Notes: generated by a model not told the origin, from the letters alone. A DNA stretch of 35,149 nucleotides from Bacillota bacterium (GCA_029239575.1 JARBUP010000002.1:1-35149), one strand, 5' to 3'; shown: positions 754 through 29,665, numbered from the stretch's first letter. Numbers and translations: made by a program.

Positions 754-2781
754 ATGGAATCTAAAATTGTAGTTGTTGGAGCCGGTTATGCAGGTATTCT
801 AACTGCTAAAAAAGTGGCAAAAAAATTCAAAAAACTTAACAAAAAAGATGTTAGCATTACAATAATTGACAGAAACCCATTTCACACTATGTTAACTGAA
901 CTTCATGAGGTTGCAGCATGTCGTGTGGATGAAGATAGTATAAAAATAAGCTTGAAAAGAGTTTTTGCTGGAAGAAATGTTGATGTAAAACTTGATACTG
1001 TTGATTCAATAGATTTTGATAAAAAATGCGTTAACGGTGTTAATGAAAAATATGATTATGACTACTTAGTAATTGCTGCTGGTTCTAAGCCAACTGATTT
1101 TGGTATAAAAGGTGTTAAAGAAAATGCATTTATGCTTTGGTCATTTGAAGATGCTGTTGTATTAAGAGACAGAATTCAAGAAATGTTTAGACGTGCATCT
1201 GTTGAAACAAACTTAGAAGAAAAGAAAAGATTATTAACATTCCACGTTATAGGCGCTGGTTTTACAGGCGTTGAAATGGTTGGAGAACTTGCTGAATTTG
1301 TTCCTATTTTATGTGATAAATATGAGATAGATAGAAGCTTAGTTACTTTAGTAAATGCTGACGGTTTATCAAGAACTGTACCTAACTTAGATGAAAGTAT
1401 ATCAAGAAAAGTTGAAAGACGTTTAAATAAAATGGGTGTTGACCTTCTTCTTAATAACTTTGTTCAAGAAGTTGGACCTGATTTTGTATCTACAAAAAGT
1501 GGTGATAGAATAACTAAACACGCAACTGGTACTGTTATTTGGGCTGCAGGTATTGAAGGATCAGATATTACTACTGCTGTAACAAAACAAATTAAAGGTG
1601 GCGGAAGAGGCAGAGTTCAAGTTGATAAATATTTACGTTCTGTAGATAAAGATAATGTATTTGTTGTTGGCGATAACATGTTCTTTATCTGTGAAGGTGA
1701 AGAAAGACCAGTTCCTCAAGTTGTTGAAAATGCAGAACAAAGTGCGGATGTAGCAGCACATAATATAGTATCAGCTGTTACTGGACAAGGCGAAATGGAA
1801 TCTTATACACATAAAAATCATGGATTCATGGTTTGTATCGGAGGACGTTATGGAGTTGCTTCAGTTGGAACAGTAAATAAAAAGTTTAGCTTACCATCAT
1901 TCTTAGCGATGTTTTCTAAACATTTCATAAATATAGTTTATTTCGTTCAAGTTTTAGGCTGGAATAAAATATTCAGCTATATAAAACATGAATTCTTTAC
2001 AATAAGAAACTGCAGAAGTTTCGTAGGCGGACATTTTTCAAACAGAACACCAAGTTTCTTATTAGTTTTACTGAGGGTATGGCTTGGATGTGTATGGTTA
2101 TTTGAAGGTATAATGAAAGTAGTTGAAGGATGGTTTAATGCACCTAAACTTACTGGATTTTTTGGTGGTGCAAGTGCTTGGTTTAATAGTATAATTAATC
2201 CGGGTGCAGCAGCAGACGGTGTAACAGCAGCAACAGGAGCAGCAGCAGAAGGCGCAGCCGCAGCAGCAGATGCTGTAACAGCAGCAACAGGAGCAGCAGC
2301 AGGTGGAGCTGGTGAAGCAGCACAAGCAGTTGGAACAGCACTTATGAATTTCGACTTCCTTGGTTTAATTCAAGTAATATTAGTAAGTGGTAAAGCATTA
2401 GCTGAATCAACTTTAGCTGACTTAGCTGTTAAATTAAATATACCATTAATGAATTGGTTTGTTGACAATGTAATATTATCAAGTGATTCAATGCAAGTAT
2501 TTATGCAAGGATTCATTGTAATTGCTGAAATTTTAATTGGTCTTGCTTTAATAGGTGGCTTGTTTACATTCCCAGCTTCGTTGTTCTCAATAATTCTTCA
2601 GTTCATGTTTGTATGTACAACTGGATTATATTTAAATTCTATTTGGATGGTATTTGCGGGTATTGCTGTATTAATAGGAGCAGGAAGAACATTTGGATTA
2701 GATTATTATGTAATGCCTTGGTTAAAGAAAAAATGGAAAAAAATAGGTTTTGTAAAGAGGCTTTATATTTACCATGATTAA
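754..2781 (+). CDS. ndh2: EET-type type II NADH dehydrogenase with C-terminal membrane domain
   Basis: This is an FAD-dependent, non-proton-pumping NADH:quinone oxidoreductase of 675 residues. The start follows an AAGGAGA site. A FAD-binding GxGxxG motif sits at residues 9-14 (GAGYAG), an NADH-binding GAGFTG at 167-172, and the second FAD contact VVGDN near 304-308. Classic Ndh-2 enzymes are about 400 residues. This one carries an extra region of about 240 residues with hydrophobic segments near 434-460 and 585-650 that resemble DoxX-type helices, split by an Ala-rich insertion (about 484-527). A C-terminal membrane extension is the hallmark of Listeria Ndh2, which feeds electrons to a dedicated demethylmenaquinone pool for extracellular electron transfer. 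The following genes (dmkB, pplA, fmnB) support that role rather than aerobic respiration. It is probably the first gene of an operon, with dmkB 16 bases downstream. Confidence 0.9.
   Translation: MESKIVVVGAGYAGILTAKKVAKKFKKLNKKDVSITIIDRNPFHTMLTELHEVAACRVDEDSIKISLKRVFAGRNVDVKLDTVDSIDFDKKCVNGVNEKYDYDYLVIAAGSKPTDFGIKGVKENAFMLWSFEDAVVLRDRIQEMFRRASVETNLEEKKRLLTFHVIGAGFTGVEMVGELAEFVPILCDKYEIDRSLVTLVNADGLSRTVPNLDESISRKVERRLNKMGVDLLLNNFVQEVGPDFVSTKSGDRITKHATGTVIWAAGIEGSDITTAVTKQIKGGGRGRVQVDKYLRSVDKDNVFVVGDNMFFICEGEERPVPQVVENAEQSADVAAHNIVSAVTGQGEMESYTHKNHGFMVCIGGRYGVASVGTVNKKFSLPSFLAMFSKHFINIVYFVQVLGWNKIFSYIKHEFFTIRNCRSFVGGHFSNRTPSFLLVLLRVWLGCVWLFEGIMKVVEGWFNAPKLTGFFGGASAWFNSIINPGAAADGVTAATGAAAEGAAAAADAVTAATGAAAGGAGEAAQAVGTALMNFDFLGLIQVILVSGKALAESTLADLAVKLNIPLMNWFVDNVILSSDSMQVFMQGFIVIAEILIGLALIGGLFTFPASLFSIILQFMFVCTTGLYLNSIWMVFAGIAVLIGAGRTFGLDYYVMPWLKKKWKKIGFVKRLYIYHD
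2215..2322 (+). repeat. two 54-base tandem units encoding an Ala-rich linker in ndh2
   Basis: Two adjacent 54-base units (2215-2268 and 2269-2322) encode 18-residue repeats beginning DGVTAATGAAAEG and DAVTAATGAAAGG (residues 488-505 and 506-523). The insertion lies between the two halves of the membrane domain. It is GCA/GCAGCC-rich, unlike the AT-rich surroundings, and looks like a recent slippage or duplication product forming a flexible or helical Ala linker. Confidence 0.85.
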
Positions 2782-2797
2782 TTAAAAAGGAAATACA

Positions 2798-3769
2798 ATG
2801 ACTATAGATAACAATATTACTAAACAAATAATAACATTTGATCAAGCAATTGTATTAGTGAAAGATGAGGTAGATAGAGCTCTATCTTCCTCACCTCTCA
2901 TAATAAGAGGATTTACTAAGCATTTGACTAAATCCCATGGAAAATTTATTCGTGCAGTATCACTAATTGCTTGTGCACAAGATGAGGTTGGTTATATTCA
3001 TCCTAATGCAATTAAATTTGCAGCATCAATAGAACTTTTACATCTTGCGACACTAGTTCATGATGATATTATAGATGATGCTGATTTAAGAAGAGGGGAA
3101 GCAACTCTTCAAAAAAAATTCGGTAAAAAAACAGCAGTAATTTGTGGCGATTATCTTTTGGCTGTAGCACTACAATTAGCTACTTCAGTTTCAAATAGAG
3201 AAGATTATTTGAAAATTAATATGACTGAGTATATAACAAAAGTATGTCTTGGTGAATTAAACCAACATATAAATAATCATAATTTGGATTTATCGGTAAG
3301 CAAATATTTAAAAATAATTTCAGGTAAAACGGCAGCCTTGTTTGAAGCTTCGTTTTTCGCTGGTGCTATATTGTGTGAAAATGATAAAATAATAATTAAC
3401 AAATACAAAAAACTTGGAAGATATATTGGTATGTTATTTCAGCTTACTGATGATTGTATGGACTTTGAGGAGACTAAAGACACGGCTAAAAAACCTGTTC
3501 AATCAGATTATGAACAAGGTGTAATAACATTGCCGTTAATATATGCATTAAAAGAAGACAGTAATTTAAAAGAAAAAGCTAAATTTAATTCTGTTACAAG
3601 AGATGATATAAATTCTTCTGTATTAAAAACAGGTGGATTAAAATTTACTCATTTAATGTCAAAGCAATATTACAACAAAAGTTTAAAATTAATTAATGAG
3701 TTAAATGTTTCAAAAGAAAAAGAAGAAAAGCTTAAATTGATTTTAGATAAATCTTATAGGTTAATATAA
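2798..3769 (+). CDS. dmkB: polyprenyl diphosphate synthase (EET demethylmenaquinone branch)
   Basis: This trans-type polyprenyl diphosphate synthase of 323 residues builds an isoprenoid chain from IPP and an allylic primer. Both Asp-rich motifs are present: DDIID at 89-93 (within LVHDDIIDDADLRRG) and DDCMD at 218-222. KTAALFE and the late KKPVQSDYEQG segment are typical of HepT/IspB-like enzymes. In Listeria the EET locus holds such an enzyme (DmkB), which makes the tail of the demethylmenaquinone used by Ndh2. The position directly after ndh2 supports the same role here. The partner prenyltransferase DmkA is not in the window. The start ATG follows AAAGGAAA. The symbol is by context; by sequence alone it could equally serve general menaquinone synthesis. 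Confidence 0.85.
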   Translation: MTIDNNITKQIITFDQAIVLVKDEVDRALSSSPLIIRGFTKHLTKSHGKFIRAVSLIACAQDEVGYIHPNAIKFAASIELLHLATLVHDDIIDDADLRRGEATLQKKFGKKTAVICGDYLLAVALQLATSVSNREDYLKINMTEYITKVCLGELNQHINNHNLDLSVSKYLKIISGKTAALFEASFFAGAILCENDKIIINKYKKLGRYIGMLFQLTDDCMDFEETKDTAKKPVQSDYEQGVITLPLIYALKEDSNLKEKAKFNSVTRDDINSSVLKTGGLKFTHLMSKQYYNKSLKLINELNVSKEKEEKLKLILDKSYRLI

Positions 3770-3812
3770 GTATTATCTTATTATCATTATTTTTCAATTT
3801 AGTTGTTATATT

Positions 3813-3825
3813 CCGGCTTAGCCGG
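3813..3825 (+). promoter_or_regulatory. GC-rich hairpin between dmkB and pplA
   Basis: CCGGC-TTA-GCCGG forms a perfect 5-bp GC stem with a 3-base loop in an otherwise AT-rich 96-base gap. TTTAT follows, but there is no real U-run, so it is more likely an RNA-processing or stability element (or a weak attenuator) at the 5' end of a separately abundant pplA message. TTGTTA (3803-3808) upstream and TATATA (3828-3833) could form a poor promoter with a 19-base spacer. Confidence 0.4.
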
Positions 3826-3865
3826 TTTATATAAAAAATTAACATTATATTTCGTGGAGGAAATT

Positions 3866-4930
3866 ATGAAAAAGTTAGCATCATTAGCGTTGGTTTTATC
3901 TATGTCTTTATTCGCTTTCGTAGGATGTAGCAAACCAGCAGCAGAAACACCAGCACCAGCGCCAGCACCAGAAGCGCCAGTAGCTGAAGCACCAGCAGCA
4001 GATGCTGTTAAAACAGGATTAGCAGTAATTTCAAATGCAGAAAAATCAAAAGCACCAGAAGCTGATAAAGAAGGTACAGCTGAAGTTAACTCTGTAGTTG
4101 TAGCAGTAACTGTTGATAAAGATGGTAAAATAGTAAAAGCAGCTATAGATACTGCACAAACAAAAATTAACTTTACTAAAGAAGGTAAAATAACTACTGA
4201 TTTAGCAAAAGTATTTGAAGCAAAACAAACACTTGGTGATGAATATGGAATGAAAAAAGCTTCTAAAATAGGTAAAGAATGGTTTGAACAAGCAAATGCA
4301 TTCGAAACATTTGTAGAAGGTAAAACTGTTGAAGAAATAAAAGCATTTGCACTTGACGCAGATACTCATTTAACTGATGCTGATATGGTATCTTCTGTAT
4401 CTATTAAAGTTGGCGGATACATAGAAGCTATTGAAAAAGCTGTAGCTAATGCTCAAGATTTAGGAGCAACTGCTGATGATAAATTAGGTCTTGGCGTTAT
4501 AACTACTATCGACAAATCTAAAGATGCTGCAGCTGATGCAGAAGGAGTAGCTCAAGCTTATACTTATTACACAGTTTCAACATTTGATGCTGATGGAAAA
4601 GTTTCAAGCTCAATAATGGATGCTTCTCAAACAAATGTTAAATTTGATGCAACAGGTAAAATTACTTCTGATTTAGCAGCTGAATTACAAACTAAAAATG
4701 AATTAGGCGATGCTTACGGAATGAAAAAAGCATCTAAAATAGGTAAAGAGTGGAATGAACAAGCTAATGCTTTCTCTTTATATGTAGTTGGAAAAACAGT
4801 TGCTGAAGTTGAAGGTATCGCAGTTGACGCTGAAGGACACACTACTGCAGCTGATATAGTATCATCAGTAACAGTTGGTATAGCTGAATTCCAAGAAACT
4901 TTAGCAAAAGCTGAAGCTTCTGCAAAATAA
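3866..4930 (+). CDS. pplA: extracellular electron transfer flavoprotein lipoprotein with two FMN-binding domains
   Basis: This is a secreted lipoprotein of 354 residues. The start is ATG 3866, five bases after GGAGG (3856-3860); an upstream in-frame start at 3803 would add 21 residues ahead of the signal peptide and has no ribosome site. The signal peptide ends in the lipobox FVGC with lipidated Cys21. An Ala/Pro/Glu-rich linker (about 22-50) follows, then two homologous domains of about 150 residues, both containing the block YGMKKASKIGKEW. Each ends in a flavinylation-like motif: D173-M-V-S-S-V-S179 and D330-I-V-S-S-V-T336, variants of the DxxSGA(S/T) sequence in which FMN is attached to the last Ser/Thr. 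The architecture matches Listeria PplA, which shuttles electrons from the membrane to extracellular acceptors. The flavin transferase fmnB follows. Covalent FMN at S179 and T336 is inferred. Confidence 0.85.
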   Translation: MKKLASLALVLSMSLFAFVGCSKPAAETPAPAPAPEAPVAEAPAADAVKTGLAVISNAEKSKAPEADKEGTAEVNSVVVAVTVDKDGKIVKAAIDTAQTKINFTKEGKITTDLAKVFEAKQTLGDEYGMKKASKIGKEWFEQANAFETFVEGKTVEEIKAFALDADTHLTDADMVSSVSIKVGGYIEAIEKAVANAQDLGATADDKLGLGVITTIDKSKDAAADAEGVAQAYTYYTVSTFDADGKVSSSIMDASQTNVKFDATGKITSDLAAELQTKNELGDAYGMKKASKIGKEWNEQANAFSLYVVGKTVAEVEGIAVDAEGHTTAADIVSSVTVGIAEFQETLAKAEASAK

Positions 4931-4971
4931 TTATATTAATTATTTAAAATATAGTATATAATATTTAATCA

Positions 4972-5001
4972 TAGAGGTAGTTATACTACCTCTAATTTTT
5001 T
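4972..5001 (+). terminator. intrinsic terminator/attenuator between pplA and fmnB
   Basis: A perfect 10-bp stem (TAGAGGTAGT, 4972-4981, with ACTACCTCTA, 4985-4994) and TAT loop are followed by AA and six T. The U-run ends directly at the fmnB ribosome site GAGGTGAT (5002-5009). The ACCTC in the 3' arm could also pair with that site. Partial read-through would give a large excess of pplA mRNA over fmnB mRNA, which suits an abundant substrate protein and its modifying enzyme. Confidence 0.85.
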
Positions 5002-5013
5002 GAGGTGATTATA

Positions 5014-6111
5014 TTGTTTAAGTTAAATAAATTTAAAAAAGTAATTTCAATTGTTACAATAATTATGCTAATGGTAAGCTTAACAGCTTGCACAAGCGCC
5101 GAAAATAACAATACAGATGATAAAAACAATACAAAAAATAAAACACGATATGAATCGGAATTTCTTGAATTGTTTGACACTGTAACCCGTATAGTTGGCT
5201 TTGCAGAAAGTGAAGCAGAATTTAAAGAATATTCACAAATAATTTATGATAATTTAAAAGAATATCATGAGCTTTATGACATATATAATGATTATGAAGG
5301 CATAAATAATATAAAAACAATTAATGATAATGCAGGTATTCAACCTATAAAAGTAGACCAAAAAATAATAGATTTACTTAAATTTTGTAAAGAAGCATAT
5401 AATATTACAAATGGGAAAACAAATATTGCATTTGGCTCTGTTTTAAAAATATGGCATGATTACCGAGACGAAGGCATTAGTGACCCAGAAAATGCAAAAT
5501 TGCCTGATATTAAAGATTTGGAAAAAGCAAGTAAACATACGGATATAAATAATATTATAATAGATGAAACAAACTCTACAGTATTTCTTAAAGACCCTGA
5601 TATGAGACTTGATGTAGGTGCTGTTGCAAAAGGATATGCAACAGAACAAATAAGCAAAATAGCAAAAGAAAGTGGTTTAACATCTGGTTTGATTAGCGTT
5701 GGCGGGAATGTTAGAGCTATAAGTCAAAATTCAGAAACAAAAGCACCATGGAATGTTGGAATCCAAAATCCTGATACTCAAAGTGAGAATCAAGTTTTAA
5801 AAGTAGTAAGAATTAATGATATGTCACTTGTAACAAGTGGTGATTATGAAAGATATTACACTGTAAATGGTAAACAATATAATCATATTATAGATACTGA
5901 AACTCTTTTTCCAGCAGAATATTTTACTTCAGTTTCTATAATAATACAGGATTCTGGACTGGCAGATGCTTTATCTACTGCACTTTTTGATATGCCTTTT
6001 GAAGAAGGTTTAGAATTAATTAACAGTATTCCTGATGCTGAAGCTATGTGGATTTTAAAAGATGGAACATTTAAATATAGCGAAGGTTTTGAAAAATTAA
6101 TAAAAAATTAA
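5014..6111 (+). CDS. fmnB: FAD:protein FMN transferase, lipoprotein (ApbE family)
   Basis: ApbE-family enzymes split FAD and attach FMN covalently to Ser/Thr of extracytoplasmic flavoproteins. The start is TTG 5014, correctly spaced from the near-perfect GAGGTGAT site; a GTG at 5005 lies inside that site. The 365-residue product has a lipobox SLTAC (Cys26), so it is anchored outside the membrane. Family features are DVGAVAKGYATE (from D200), the glycine-rich ISVGGN segment, TSGDYERYY, NHIIDTET, and the metal/catalytic DALST segment (D318, T322). It follows pplA, its presumed substrate, and is the counterpart of Listeria FmnB. The FMN-binding protein at 9881-10279 is a second likely substrate. 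Confidence 0.9.
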   Translation: MFKLNKFKKVISIVTIIMLMVSLTACTSAENNNTDDKNNTKNKTRYESEFLELFDTVTRIVGFAESEAEFKEYSQIIYDNLKEYHELYDIYNDYEGINNIKTINDNAGIQPIKVDQKIIDLLKFCKEAYNITNGKTNIAFGSVLKIWHDYRDEGISDPENAKLPDIKDLEKASKHTDINNIIIDETNSTVFLKDPDMRLDVGAVAKGYATEQISKIAKESGLTSGLISVGGNVRAISQNSETKAPWNVGIQNPDTQSENQVLKVVRINDMSLVTSGDYERYYTVNGKQYNHIIDTETLFPAEYFTSVSIIIQDSGLADALSTALFDMPFEEGLELINSIPDAEAMWILKDGTFKYSEGFEKLIKN

Positions 6112-6191: not shown

Positions 6192-6207
6192 TTTGAAAGG
6201 AGTTTTT

Positions 6208-7992
6208 ATGGATAATATTAAAATATTGTTGTTACATATGAAAGGATTTAAATATCTATTTTTAATTTCTTTTATTGTTACAACTTTAAGAGTATTTATT
6301 AATTTTATAACACCTCAAGTTATAAGGTTTACAGTGGATTCTATAATTAGTGAAGAAATAATCAAGTCTTCTTTAGTTATTAATTTAACAAATTATTTTG
6401 GTGGCCGTAATTATATTAGAGAAAATATTTGGATTTGTGCTTTAGCAATTATAATTTTAGCTATAATAACATGTATTTGTGATTATATAGGAAGAACATC
6501 TAATGCAAAAGCTTCTGAAAAATTAATGAAAAGTATTAGAAATAGTTTATATGAACATATCCAAAAGCTGCCATACAGCTGGCATATAAAAAATCAAACT
6601 GGGGATACAATACAACGTTCAACTTCTGATGTAGAAATGGTTCGTAATTTTATGAGTTCTCAGCTCATGGAATTGTTTAGAACAATAATGTTAATAGTTA
6701 TATCTTTAATACTTATGTTTTCTATGAATTACTTATTAAGTTTAATAGTACTTATATTTGTTCCTATAATTATAATATATTCTTCTATTTTCTATGGCAT
6801 TTTATCTAAGCAGTTTTTAGTAGCAGATGAGGCTGAAGGTCAGCTTTTTAATGCAGCTCAAGAAAATTTAACTGGTGTTAGAGTAGTAAGGGCTTTTGGA
6901 AGAGAAAAATATGAAATAGAAAAATTCAACAAAAGAAACAAAGAGTTTTCAGATTTATGGGTAAAACTTGGGTATAAGCTTGGTATTTATTGGGGAGTTG
7001 GAGATTTAGTAACAGGGCTTCAAATTATGGCTGTAATTTATGTTGGAGTAATTCAAGCTTCAAAAGGAATCATTACATTAGGAGAGTTTCTTGCATTTGT
7101 ATCTTATAATGCTATGCTTACATGGCCTGTAAGAAGTTTTGGTAGAATATTAGGCGAACTTAGTAAAACGAAAGTTTCTTTAAATAGAATATGTGAAATT
7201 TTAAAAGAACCTGAAGAAAAAGACGAAATAAACAATGAAACACCTGATTTAAGTCAAGATATAGAATTTAAAAATGTAAACTTTAAATATGATAATAATA
7301 CGCCAATATTAAAAGATATAAGTTTTACAATTAAATACAAAACTACATTTGCCATATTAGGTGGAACTGGATCAGGAAAAACAACACTCATGCATTTGTT
7401 AAATCGTTTATATGATTTGTCAGAAGGTGAGGGTACAATAACAATAGGTAATGTTAACATTAAAAATATTAAAAGAAATTATCTAAGAAAAAACATTGGC
7501 ATGGTCCTTCAAGAGCCGTTTTTGTTTTCAAAAACAATTAAGGATAATATTAAAATAGCTAAACCTGAAGCAAGTATAGAAGAAATAAGAAATGTTTCAG
7601 ATGTAGCTCAAGTTACAAAGTCCATAGAAAATTTTGAAAAAGGATATGATACCATTGTAGGTGAAAGGGGTGTTACACTTTCTGGTGGTCAAAAACAACG
7701 TGTTGCTATTGCAAGGATGATACTTCAAAATACTCCTATAATGGTTTTTGATGATTCTTTATCCGCTGTAGATTCTGAAACAGATGCTAAAATTAGAAAT
7801 GAACTTAAAAAGAGAAAAAACAAGTCAACAACTATACTTATTTCTCATCGTATAACAACTCTCATGGAATCAGATATGATTTTAGTATTAGATAAGGGTG
7901 AAATAGCGGACATAGGTACTCATGAAGATCTTATTAAAAAGGATGGGATTTATAAAAATATATATGATGTTCAAATGAATTTATCCATATGA
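6208..7992 (+). CDS. heterodimeric ABC exporter subunit (degenerate catalytic site)
   Basis: A half-transporter of 594 residues: an N-terminal type IV exporter membrane domain (about 1-320) and a C-terminal ATPase. The start is ATG 6208 after AAAGGAG; an in-frame TTG at 6193 precedes that site and is rejected. Walker A is GGTGSGKTT (385-393), the signature is a canonical LSGGQ (491-495), Walker B ends D515-D516 and the switch His is H547. The usual catalytic Glu is replaced by Asp516. This is the pattern of the degenerate partner in heterodimers such as BmrCD, LmrCD and TM287/288. Its partner follows directly. The substrate is unknown. Its place between fmnB and an FMN-binding protein raises flavin or quinone-related export as a possibility, but multidrug or lipid export is equally consistent. 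Confidence 0.9.
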   Translation: MDNIKILLLHMKGFKYLFLISFIVTTLRVFINFITPQVIRFTVDSIISEEIIKSSLVINLTNYFGGRNYIRENIWICALAIIILAIITCICDYIGRTSNAKASEKLMKSIRNSLYEHIQKLPYSWHIKNQTGDTIQRSTSDVEMVRNFMSSQLMELFRTIMLIVISLILMFSMNYLLSLIVLIFVPIIIIYSSIFYGILSKQFLVADEAEGQLFNAAQENLTGVRVVRAFGREKYEIEKFNKRNKEFSDLWVKLGYKLGIYWGVGDLVTGLQIMAVIYVGVIQASKGIITLGEFLAFVSYNAMLTWPVRSFGRILGELSKTKVSLNRICEILKEPEEKDEINNETPDLSQDIEFKNVNFKYDNNTPILKDISFTIKYKTTFAILGGTGSGKTTLMHLLNRLYDLSEGEGTITIGNVNIKNIKRNYLRKNIGMVLQEPFLFSKTIKDNIKIAKPEASIEEIRNVSDVAQVTKSIENFEKGYDTIVGERGVTLSGGQKQRVAIARMILQNTPIMVFDDSLSAVDSETDAKIRNELKKRKNKSTTILISHRITTLMESDMILVLDKGEIADIGTHEDLIKKDGIYKNIYDVQMNLSI

Positions 7993-8010
7993 TAAATGTT
8001 GGAGGCAATT

Positions 8011-9831
8011 TTGGAAGAAGAAATTAAAGAAATTAAATCATTTGATATAAAAGTATGGCTTAAATTAAGAAAATTTTTCAAACAATATCTTAGTCAGTTA
8101 ATAGGAATAGTTGCATTCATGTTGATTTCTGCTTTTATTGATGTAGCCCTTCCTTTATTTCAGAGTTATGCAGTTGATAACTTTATAGTAAATAATTCAA
8201 CAGAAGGATTAAATAAATTTGCAATATTATATTTTTTGGTAATTTCATTGCAGGTTATAACAGTATATATATTTGTTAGGTTAGCAATAACTGTTGAAAT
8301 GCGCTTAGGATATGATTTAAGGCAATCTATTTTTATGCATTTGCAAAGTTTATCTTTGTCTTACTACAATACAACACCTGTTGGTTATATAATGTCAAGA
8401 GTTTTAAGTGATACAAATAAAATTGGTTCCATGATTGCATGGGGATTAGTTGATGTAATATGGTCCATAGCATACGTAATAGGTGTCTTTATAGCTATGA
8501 TGATATTAAATTATAAACTTGCGTTATTAATAATTGTATCCATACCTTTGATGGTTATTATTACGATGTTTTTTCAAAAAAGGATGTTAATAGAAAGTCG
8601 AAATTTAAGAAAAATAAATTCTAAAATGACAGGTGATTTCAATGAAGGAATAACTGGAGCGCGTACATCAAAAACTTTGGTTATAGAACATTTAAATTTA
8701 AAAGAATTTAAAAAGTCAACTAATGATTTAGAATTTACATCGATTAAATTAGCAAGATTAAATGCAGTATTTATTCCAATAATAGTTTTTTTTGGCTCTG
8801 CAACAACAGCCATAGTTTTAGCAAGGGGTGGATATCTTGCTATGAATGATTTGATGAAGCTTGGCACTTTATCAGCATTTATATCATATGCAATTGGAAT
8901 ATTTGAACCCATACAACAATTAGCTCGTATATTTTCAGAAGTAATTTCTTTACAAGCTAATATAGAAAGAGTTACAGAGATTCTCGAAAAAGAGCCTTTA
9001 ATTAAAGATTCTGAACAAGTTTTAGAAAAGTATGGGGATAACATAAATCCTAAAAAAGAAAACTGGGAAGAAATTAAAGGTGATATAGAGTTTAGAAATG
9101 TTACATTTAAATATCCTGATGGTGATGAAGAAATTTTAAACAATTTTAATTTATTTATTCCTGCTGGTACAAATGTGGCTATAGTTGGAGAAACAGGAGC
9201 AGGAAAAAGCACACTTGTAAACCTTGCATGCAGGTTTTATGAACCTACTGAGGGGCAAGTATTTATAGATGGTAAGGATTATAGAGAAAGATCACAGTTA
9301 TGGCTTCATTCAAACATAGGCTATGTATTGCAAAATCCACATTTGTTTTCAGGAACTATAAAAGAAAACATTCGTTATGGGAATCTTAATGCTAGTGATG
9401 CAGAGATTGAAAAAGCTGCAAAAATAGTTTCGGTTGATGAAATTATAAAAAAATTAGAGTTTGGGTACGATTCTCAAGTAGGGGAAGGGGGCGACAAATT
9501 ATCTACTGGAGAAAAACAGCTTATATCAATTGCAAGAGCTATATTAGCTAATCCTAAAATTTTTGTTTTAGATGAAGCGACATCATCTATTGATACACAA
9601 ACTGAAACGCATTTGCAAGAAGGTATTAACTATTTGTTAAAAGGTAGAACTTCATTTATAATAGCTCATAGGCTATCTACAATTAAAAAAGCAGATTTAA
9701 TTTTGGCAGTAAGAAATGGAAAAGTGGTTGAGCAAGGAACGCATTTGCAATTAATTAACAAAAAGGGCTATTATTACAACTTGTACACTAAGCAATATGA
9801 AGAAGAAAAAACATTTGAGGTTTTAAAATGA
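8011..9831 (+). CDS. heterodimeric ABC exporter subunit (catalytic partner)
   Basis: A half-transporter of 606 residues pairing with the upstream gene. The start TTG 8011 is chosen because GGAGG (8001-8005) lies five bases before it; the ATG at 7996 would add five residues but has no ribosome site. Walker A is GETGAGKST (393-401), Walker B carries a proper catalytic Glu (D521-E522, LDEATSSID) and the switch His is H553, but the signature is altered to LSTGEK (497-502). In the heterodimer this gives one functional ATP site (this Walker A/B plus the LSGGQ of the partner) and one degenerate site, as in known asymmetric exporters. A linker around residues 335-350 (NINPKKENWEE) is slightly longer than usual. 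Confidence 0.9.
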   Translation: MEEEIKEIKSFDIKVWLKLRKFFKQYLSQLIGIVAFMLISAFIDVALPLFQSYAVDNFIVNNSTEGLNKFAILYFLVISLQVITVYIFVRLAITVEMRLGYDLRQSIFMHLQSLSLSYYNTTPVGYIMSRVLSDTNKIGSMIAWGLVDVIWSIAYVIGVFIAMMILNYKLALLIIVSIPLMVIITMFFQKRMLIESRNLRKINSKMTGDFNEGITGARTSKTLVIEHLNLKEFKKSTNDLEFTSIKLARLNAVFIPIIVFFGSATTAIVLARGGYLAMNDLMKLGTLSAFISYAIGIFEPIQQLARIFSEVISLQANIERVTEILEKEPLIKDSEQVLEKYGDNINPKKENWEEIKGDIEFRNVTFKYPDGDEEILNNFNLFIPAGTNVAIVGETGAGKSTLVNLACRFYEPTEGQVFIDGKDYRERSQLWLHSNIGYVLQNPHLFSGTIKENIRYGNLNASDAEIEKAAKIVSVDEIIKKLEFGYDSQVGEGGDKLSTGEKQLISIARAILANPKIFVLDEATSSIDTQTETHLQEGINYLLKGRTSFIIAHRLSTIKKADLILAVRNGKVVEQGTHLQLINKKGYYYNLYTKQYEEEKTFEVLK

Positions 9832-9880: not shown

Positions 9881-10279
9881 ATGAAGAAGAAAAAAGTTTT
9901 TTTATCATTTATATTTATTGTAGTTGTTTTATTTATAATTATTTTGTTTTCAATAAACAATATGCAAAAAAGTTTAAGCAAGTTAGATAAGTTAACAATA
10001 GAAAATATTAATTTATCAAATGCAAAAGATGGAACATATAATGGTAGCTATGGAGTATTTCCTGTATCTGCTGAAGTTAATGTAACTATAAAAAACAATA
10101 AAATAGTGAATATTGAATTGTTGAAACATAATAATGGTAAAGGTGAATCAGCAGAAATATTAACTGAGAAAGTCGTGGAAAATCAAAGTTTAGAAGTCGA
10201 TATTGTTTCAGGAGCTACTTATAGCAGTAAAGTAATATTAAAATCAATTGAAAATGCTTTAAATAAATCAATCAATTAA
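9881..10279 (+). CDS. membrane-anchored FMN-binding-domain protein (ApbE substrate)
   Basis: A small protein of 132 residues. Residues 6-27 form an uncleaved-looking hydrophobic anchor after a KKKK start, followed by a single extracytoplasmic FMN_bind domain (about 45-130). The flavinylation motif is canonical, D107-I-V-S-G-A-T113-Y, so FMN is expected as a phosphoester on T113. This is the class of single-domain flavin carrier seen in NqrC/RnfG and many extracellular electron transfer clusters. The start ATG follows AAGGTGG. It lies 49 bases after the ABC exporter and 19 bases before a flavodoxin. Role inferred: a membrane-surface electron carrier working with or alongside PplA. Confidence 0.85.
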   Translation: MKKKKVFLSFIFIVVVLFIIILFSINNMQKSLSKLDKLTIENINLSNAKDGTYNGSYGVFPVSAEVNVTIKNNKIVNIELLKHNNGKGESAEILTEKVVENQSLEVDIVSGATYSSKVILKSIENALNKSIN

Positions 10280-10928: not shown

Positions 10929-11034
10929 GCTCAAGCTCGGTCTTGCGCAACAGAATCCTGTGAACGTGTCAGGTCCGGAAGGAAGCAGCAATAAGTGGGT
11001 AATTCTGTGTGTCGCAAGGAAACCGGGCTTGAGC
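10929..11034 (+). ncRNA. ffs: small signal recognition particle RNA (4.5S type)
   Basis: The conserved apical domain GTCAGGTCCGGAAGGAAGCA lies at 10968-10987, containing the asymmetric and symmetric loops that bind Ffh. The ends pair: GCTCAAGC (10929-10936) with GCTTGAGC (11027-11034), and the inner arms (CAGAAT with ATTCTG, TTGCG with CGCAA) form the long hairpin. At about 106 nt it is the small SRP RNA without an Alu domain, not the 270-nt type found in Bacillus. It has its own promoter and terminator. Confidence 0.95.
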
Positions 11035-11210: not shown

Positions 11211-11711
11211 ATGAGTGATAAAAAATTAAATAAAATGGTTTATACTGCATTGCTTGCAGCACTAATATGCGTAGCTACATTTCTTATTAAAGTTCCAATG
11301 CCAATTACAAATGGATATTCACATATAGGTGATGGATTTATATTTATAGCAGTAATTTTACTTGGAGGCAAAAGTGGAGCATTAGCTGCAGCTTTAGGTG
11401 CGGCTTTAGCTGACATACTGGGTGGATATGCAATTTATGCTTTACCAACATTTATTATTAAAGGTGTCATGGCGTTAATAATGGGATATGTTGTAGTAAA
11501 AATGGATAATAAAAATAAGTATTTAATAGGTTCATTTTTAGGAAGTGTATGGCAGGTAATAGCTTATTATTTAGTGGGTGCTGTAATGGTTGGAAGTTTC
11601 ATAACTCCATTAGTTGAAATTATAGGAAACTCACTTCAATCATTAGTTGGAATTATAATAATGGTAGTTTTTTTAGCTGTATTTAAAAATACACCATTAT
11701 CAAGAAAATAA
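11211..11711 (+). CDS. ECF transporter S component (substrate unassigned)
   Basis: An integral membrane protein of 166 residues with about six hydrophobic segments and the features of energy-coupling-factor S components: a Lys-containing start, TALLAALICVATFLIKVPMP in helix 1, an acidic HIGDG turn, and the Ala/Gly-rich packing motif ALAAALGAALADILGGY. S components bind a vitamin or cofactor and borrow a shared EcfAAT module, absent here. The group includes transporters for riboflavin, thiamin, folate and other small molecules, and I cannot assign the ligand. Proximity to a flavin cluster makes a flavin a reasonable guess, but the SRP RNA unit intervenes. AAGGAG precedes the start ATG. A -10-like TATAAT at 11175-11180 may be its promoter. 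The region 11109-11210 shows a small hairpin (CTGTA with TACAG) but no recognised riboswitch. Confidence 0.8.
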   Translation: MSDKKLNKMVYTALLAALICVATFLIKVPMPITNGYSHIGDGFIFIAVILLGGKSGALAAALGAALADILGGYAIYALPTFIIKGVMALIMGYVVVKMDNKNKYLIGSFLGSVWQVIAYYLVGAVMVGSFITPLVEIIGNSLQSLVGIIIMVVFLAVFKNTPLSRK

Positions 11712-29537: not shown

Positions 29538-29562
29538 GAATTATAATTAAATATTTTGGATG

Positions 29563-29665
29563 ATGAGTTCGGGAGATACCGTAAGGAGCCGAAGGAGCAA
29601 ATTGTATACGTCAAATGCAATGAAACTTTCAGGCAAAAAGACCGAGCTAGGACAAAGCTCTGAAT
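29563..29665 (+). promoter_or_regulatory. glycine riboswitch, single aptamer
   Basis: The conserved core is present: GGGAGATACCG (29571-29581), GAGCCGAAGGAGCAA (29586-29600), a P3-type stem (ATTG with CAAT), GAAACTTTCAGGCAAAAAGACCG with the invariant CAGGCAAAA, and a GAGC/GCTC closing hairpin to TCTGAA. Only one aptamer is seen; many gcv leaders have two in tandem. The roughly 25 bases after it (to the terminator) are too short for a second, though they may form the small ghost aptamer stem of single-aptamer types. It should switch on gcv when glycine is high. Confidence 0.92.

Follow-up and report, generated by a model that had tools for sequence, protein, structure and literature searches.

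The window, a stretch of 35,149 nucleotides that represents contig C40 of a Sedimentibacter metagenome-assembled genome (MAG), very probably carries part of a clostridial flavin-based extracellular electron transfer (FLEET) module, the genes of which are dispersed over the genome and in which scavenged naphthoate would be converted to a quinone that delivers electrons to the surface lipoprotein PplA. The source genome (G000; 3.07 Mb, 87% complete) is fragmented as well as incomplete, so that absences in this assembly alone weigh little; it was read along with its relatives, which include the isolate S. acidaminivorans DSM 24004 (G036), S. saalensis (G018) and S. hydroxybenzoicus (G008).

On the plus strand, positions 754 to 6111 encode first Ndh2, then a polyprenyl synthase, next the PplA-like lipoprotein and finally an ApbE that is likewise a lipoprotein. 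Downstream, in the same orientation, follow a pair of ABC exporter halves, a small protein of the FMN_bind type, a flavodoxin and an S component resembling RibU. The features referred to below are as follows.

754–2781, plus strand: Ndh2, a type-II NADH dehydrogenase with a fused C-terminal membrane domain (Pyr_redox_2, E 1e-36)
2798–3769, plus strand: DmkB, long-chain polyprenyl diphosphate synthase (polyprenyl_synt, 1e-57; two Asp-rich DDxxD-type motifs)
3866–4930, plus strand: PplA-like lipoprotein with two tandem domains of about 150 residues (lipobox AFVGC)
4391–4402, plus strand: first putative flavinylation motif, SSVS, with Ser as the proposed FMN acceptor (from the PplA domain alignment)
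4862–4873, plus strand: second putative flavinylation motif, SSVT, with Thr as the proposed FMN acceptor (from the PplA domain alignment)
5005–6111, plus strand: FmnB, lipoprotein ApbE, FAD:protein FMN transferase (ApbE, 1.1e-68; lipobox LTAC)
6193–9831, plus strand: pair of ABC exporter half-transporters (domain search; synteny with pplA in the majority of Sedimentibacter loci)
9881–10279, plus strand: small membrane-anchored FMN_bind protein (canonical VSGAT motif)
11211–11711, plus strand: RibU-like riboflavin ECF transporter S component (domain search; synteny with pplA in most loci of the genus)

The four genes that an earlier note on this DNA had recognized as Ndh2, DmkB, PplA and FmnB are real, as their coordinates and domains hold in profile and structure-database sequence searches, and the RibU homologue that it had recommended searching for in the genome is located inside the window itself. 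The best solved relatives of Ndh2 are bacterial NDH-2 enzymes (4nwz, 2e-58); the protein displays GxGxxG at residues 9 and 167, while its membrane domain, with about five hydrophobic segments between residues 432 and 649 and an Ala-rich loop, matches DoxX with 13 bits only. The catalytic triad of L. monocytogenes FmnB (Ser, His, Asp; PMC8906456) has counterparts in an alignment of the ApbE protein. For pplA, the ATG at 3866, with GGAGG just upstream, is a likelier start than the TTG at 3803. The small FMN_bind protein is likely another FmnB substrate. A second Ndh2 of the source genome (L102, contig C285), 43% identical and interrupted by the contig end, is oriented divergently from another ApbE gene, an arrangement that resembles G027 and G028. 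The window also contains a small bacterial SRP RNA (10934–11032) between the flavodoxin gene and ribU and a glycine riboswitch (29560–29654) 5′ of gcvT-gcvPA-gcvPB. A plasmid search matched one Acetoanaerobium record, with the match overlapping none of the annotated features.

The combination of genes recurs beyond this genome. Among 80 clostridial PplA loci, ApbE is found in 72, DmkB in 46, and Ndh2 and DmkA in 44 each, while roughly 33 contain EetA and roughly 30 EetB. With ApbE and Ndh2 accompanying PplA at these frequencies, the gene set of the window is not a chance assembly. The common clostridial operon order is Ndh2-DmkB-DmkA-EetA-EetB-PplA-FmnB and, as these seven genes are often united in one locus, the window represents a dispersed version. 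Indeed, the guess of the earlier note that the components missing from the window reside elsewhere proved right for the same assembly, with DmkA on contig C131 and EetB homologues on C92 and C185 (L045, L046), each adjoining a NusG_II protein that represents EetA. The C131 DmkA (L063) matches the DHNA polyprenyltransferase models best, at 250 bits and thus below the cut-off of 316, and is 55–66% identical to the DmkA proteins inside complete clostridial operons. As a second UbiA-family protein, an MqnP-like enzyme, is encoded on C218 (L062), the genome possesses two of the quinone prenyltransferases whose complete absence had been named as an argument against the system. The proposal that EetA/EetB, or a substitute, pass electrons from quinone to PplA fared less well: in Listeria EetB exports FAD and EetA is dispensable (PMC9973259), and a role of the two proteins as electron carriers was discarded on this ground.

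Sequence comparison shows the PplA of the window to be of a divergent clostridial type with no detectable direct similarity to the canonical FMN_bind PplA of G026, the only one compared, as a direct profile comparison matched only the signal peptide. Of the lipoprotein with two flavinylation motifs previously described, the lipobox and the two domains stand, while the sites read D-L-x-[SA]-S-V-[TS] and not the canonical [ST]GA[ST], the repeats ending in DMVSSVSIKV and DIVSSVTVGI. The acceptor position of this motif is nearly invariant. Most of 203 domain copies carry D/E-L-x-[S/A/T]-S-V-T, with the motif ending in T in 196 copies and in S in 6 (T/S in 202 of 203), and exactly two domains are present in 99 of 101 proteins. 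In profile comparison, the SSV[ST] motif aligns with two motifs, DAITGVS and DAVAGAS, of a G040 protein that resembles PplA and is encoded near Ndh2; it also aligns with DAISGAS of a G028 protein above the Pfam FMN_bind cut-off. Unrelated control proteins score 0.1–0.2% and the canonical FMN_bind protein of the window equally low, so that PplA is linked to FMN_bind via intermediates only.

It is improbable, in our assessment, that the SSV[ST] lipoprotein is an unrelated, non-flavinylated surface protein, with FmnB serving only nearby canonical FMN_bind proteins. Such a reading would accommodate the non-canonical motif, the protein with a canonical VSGAT motif encoded 4 kb further downstream and the lack of matches, as the window PplA gave none to Pfam or NCBIfam in the profile search and none to PDB sequences. 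Models of the full-length protein and of a single domain (pLDDT 97) equally had no significant PDB fold match in a comparison run without a folded FMN_bind positive control, so that no fold evidence speaks for a flavin domain. But ApbE would hardly be such a constant companion of PplA, nor the acceptor position nearly invariant, and the two-domain architecture is that of Listeria PplA, which bears FMN on Thr143 and Thr265 (PMC8906456). Profile links connect PplA to the FMN_bind-positive protein P0004 and to P0001, and G006 (L041/L077) encodes a PplA paralogue of 481 aa that joins a Pfam FMN_bind domain to two SSVT domains. The SSV[ST] PplA thus likely carries covalent flavin. Two further proteins resemble this family: an open frame of 788 aa in S. 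hydroxybenzoicus (G008:C3:63298-65304) is a PplA paralogue with several PplA-type matches, and a LysM protein of the source genome (contig C81; L108 631–1701), with a weak PplA-like stretch and DITTSATM near its end, is possibly a wall-bound PplA relative.

The connection of Ndh2 to a quinone is supported by co-occurrence. Over 43 relatives, Ndh2 and a UbiA-family prenyltransferase are both present in 8 genomes and both missing in 34, with the prenyltransferase alone in 1 and Ndh2 alone in none (Fisher test, 6e-8; 7e-4 outside Sedimentibacter). Within Sedimentibacter, a quinone prenyltransferase occurs only in the three Ndh2-bearing genomes G000, G009 and G036, in all of which the Ndh2-DmkB genes are located directly upstream of pplA. 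In G036 and G009 the two genes lie between an IclR-type regulator and pplA, while in G013 and G016 such a regulator is followed by pplA directly (regulators identified by eye). Most other Sedimentibacter possess PplA, with Ndh2 and quinone prenyltransferase not found, including in G033, assembled in one contig, and G013, in two. The PplA tree of the genus splits into Ndh2-bearing and Ndh2-less clades that match the prenyltransferase pattern. This pattern may have arisen by a single evolutionary event, with one loss the simplest reading of the Ndh2-less clade because other Clostridia mostly have Ndh2. The PplA of Proteocatella sphenisci and of one MAG (L113, L114) nests within the Ndh2-bearing clade, which suggests horizontal transfer of the locus. 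As the isolate S. acidaminivorans harbours the same locus, DmkA and MqnL-MqnP-importer cluster as the source genome, the genes of the latter are not MAG contamination. A literature search on Sedimentibacter returned community-level papers only. The locus brings in an amino-acid-fermenting lineage, with a named isolate, as a candidate for flavin-based electron transfer.

The same distribution raises the possibility, tentative at best, that PplA and FmnB constitute a quinone-independent flavoprotein relay, fed for example by RNF, to which the Ndh2-quinone branch is an optional addition. Besides nearly all other Sedimentibacter, the sister genus G037 has, on its single contig, EetA-EetB-PplA-FmnB together (L072 7911–11043), with Ndh2 and UbiA-family prenyltransferase not found. 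Two RNF gene sets in the source genome (L050, L051; contigs C242, C203) make RNF a candidate reductant of PplA in Ndh2-less Sedimentibacter, and in Clostridia EetB often colocalises with Rnf genes (PMC9973259). Against this stand the position of Ndh2-DmkB immediately 5′ of pplA in G000, G009 and G036 and the confinement of prenyltransferases in the genus to precisely these genomes. The occurrence of PplA with and without the quinone branch in one genus offers a natural comparison for the PplA reductant.

With respect to the reading that we favour, in which quinone reduces PplA, the origin of the quinone head group requires consideration, as no head-group synthesis was found in the sampled clostridial quinone-EET genomes. 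MenD does not exceed the cut-off in any of the 43 relatives or of the 16 genomes behind named PplA loci, while 7 of 14 control genomes pass. MenD matches of 40–80 bits fit acetolactate-synthase-type paralogues, and a MenD-like protein of G009 (162 bits, below the cut-off) has neighbouring genes unlike a men cluster. For the futalosine pathway, MqnC (TIGR03699) is above the cut-off in none of 23 genomes and MqnA/D (PF02621) has no match in G000; weak PF02621 matches in 12 relatives and 2 of the 16 genomes, above the Pfam cut-off at 42 bits at most, were read as NMT1-type binding proteins and not as MqnA/D.

The late futalosine enzymes are present next to a transporter. A cluster of MqnL, MqnP, NMT1 binding protein, ATPase and permease is located on C218 of the source genome (L062 5586–10765, with the binding protein at 8246–9214) and in S. 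acidaminivorans (L064 5656–10783), with the upstream futalosine genes absent. MqnL (UbiD) exceeds the NCBIfam equivalog cut-off of the menaquinone-decarboxylase model TIGR03701 in both genomes and four others, while the adjoining MqnP-like UbiA protein on C218 is above the TIGR01475 cut-off and below MqnP-specific cut-offs. The cluster is conserved across Clostridia, usually with UbiX, and is found in or beside the EET loci of Caproiciproducens faecalis, Amazonia massiliensis and Acetivibrio ethanolgignens, as well as in G023 and G040. A search with the NMT1 binding protein over 245 Clostridia gave matches in 30 genomes. Of the 15 best matches besides G000, 14 lie in loci that also encode UbiD and a prenyltransferase, and the locus of the 15th is cut off by the contig end after UbiX, whereas none of the 16 weaker loci that served as contrast group has UbiD. 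An Ndh2 homologue is present in 13 of the 15 best-match genomes and in all three named species. Furthermore, in G038 (L107) NQR-like genes (identified by eye), a polyprenyl synthase, NMT1 binding protein, ATPase, permease, MenA and MenG stand in a row, with neither Ndh2 nor PplA found in this genome, so that the partner shared by the related transporters is quinone prenylation and not flavin.

The simplest reading of these neighbourhoods is that the NMT1-type importer takes up a naphthoate precursor, with riboflavin, sulfonates or another aromatic acid as possible alternative substrates. We consider the chances about even that MqnL-MqnP(-UbiX)-NMT1 binding protein-ATPase-permease constitutes a salvage cassette, which would import the futalosine-pathway naphthoate of other microbes and make demethylmenaquinone for electron export. 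Transporters of menaquinone precursors have been called undescribed (PMC5738691) and in need of computational prediction (PMC4746308), and the precursor transporter of L. plantarum is yet to be identified (PMC10746273); the conserved cluster provides a concrete candidate. A literature search that fell short of most subscription journals found no published description of the cluster. If the proposal is correct, this would be the first menaquinone-precursor importer identified, and fermenters with the cassette would be obligate cross-feeders for quinone, with access to both natural types of precursor.

Cumulatively, the following route is proposed. Ndh2 would oxidise NADH and reduce membrane demethylmenaquinone, with the quinone tail provided by DmkB and the head group derived not from de novo synthesis but from external naphthoate precursors. 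Imported 1,4-dihydroxy-2-naphthoate would be prenylated by DmkA, while 1,4-dihydroxy-6-naphthoate, entering probably via the adjacent NMT1-type ABC importer, would be processed by MqnP and then MqnL. FmnB would attach FMN to PplA from FAD exported by the EetB-type ECF transporter, and quinol would reduce the FMN bound covalently to both domains of PplA, from where electrons might reach Fe(III), humics, free flavins or a surface reductase as external acceptor. Alternatively, the quinone reduced by Ndh2 might feed flavinylated organic-acid reductases instead of minerals or humics, with PplA as a secondary outlet or a relay to these reductases. Fumarate-reductase-like proteins that contain FMN_bind domains and are about 590 and 583 residues long are encoded in the source genome, and L. 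monocytogenes has been shown to possess an extracytosolic fumarate reductase that is flavinylated, as discussed in PMC8238504. We regard this route as rather doubtful, as the fumarate-reductase-like genes are unlinked to ndh2 and pplA, while PplA and FmnB follow directly downstream of ndh2-dmkB in the window and more than half of the 80 PplA loci contain Ndh2.

Among known systems, the FLEET of Lactiplantibacillus plantarum, which depends on exogenous DHNA (PMC8837199, PMC10746273), resembles the Sedimentibacter system in having ndh2 and pplA alongside an incomplete head-group pathway, and dependence on external naphthoate is accordingly expected for the latter. Unlike L. plantarum, the Sedimentibacter genome encodes a candidate importer, and MqnP-MqnL would also allow a futalosine-type precursor. 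With the late futalosine-pathway enzymes MqnP, MqnL and MqnM (PMC4746308) it shares an equivalog-level MqnL, the adjacent MqnP-like UbiA protein and, in most relatives, an adjacent UbiX; it differs in that the early MqnA/D and MqnC were not found, an ABC importer is placed inside the cluster and UbiX is not adjacent in G000 and G036. Compared to the EET locus of Listeria monocytogenes (FmnA, DmkA, FmnB, PplA, Ndh2, DmkB, EetA, EetB), Ndh2, DmkB, DmkA, a lipoprotein bearing two putative flavin sites, a lipoprotein ApbE, EetA/EetB and RibU homologues are all present, but the genes are spread over at least three contigs, PplA is of the divergent SSV[ST] type without Pfam FMN_bind and an MqnL-MqnP-ABC importer branch is added. 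Of the Listeria-type locus originally suggested, the membership in FLEET is therefore retained, the electron transfer step by EetA/EetB is given up and PplA is reassigned to a divergent clostridial type; the locus in the window belongs to an already known flavin-based extracellular electron transfer system.
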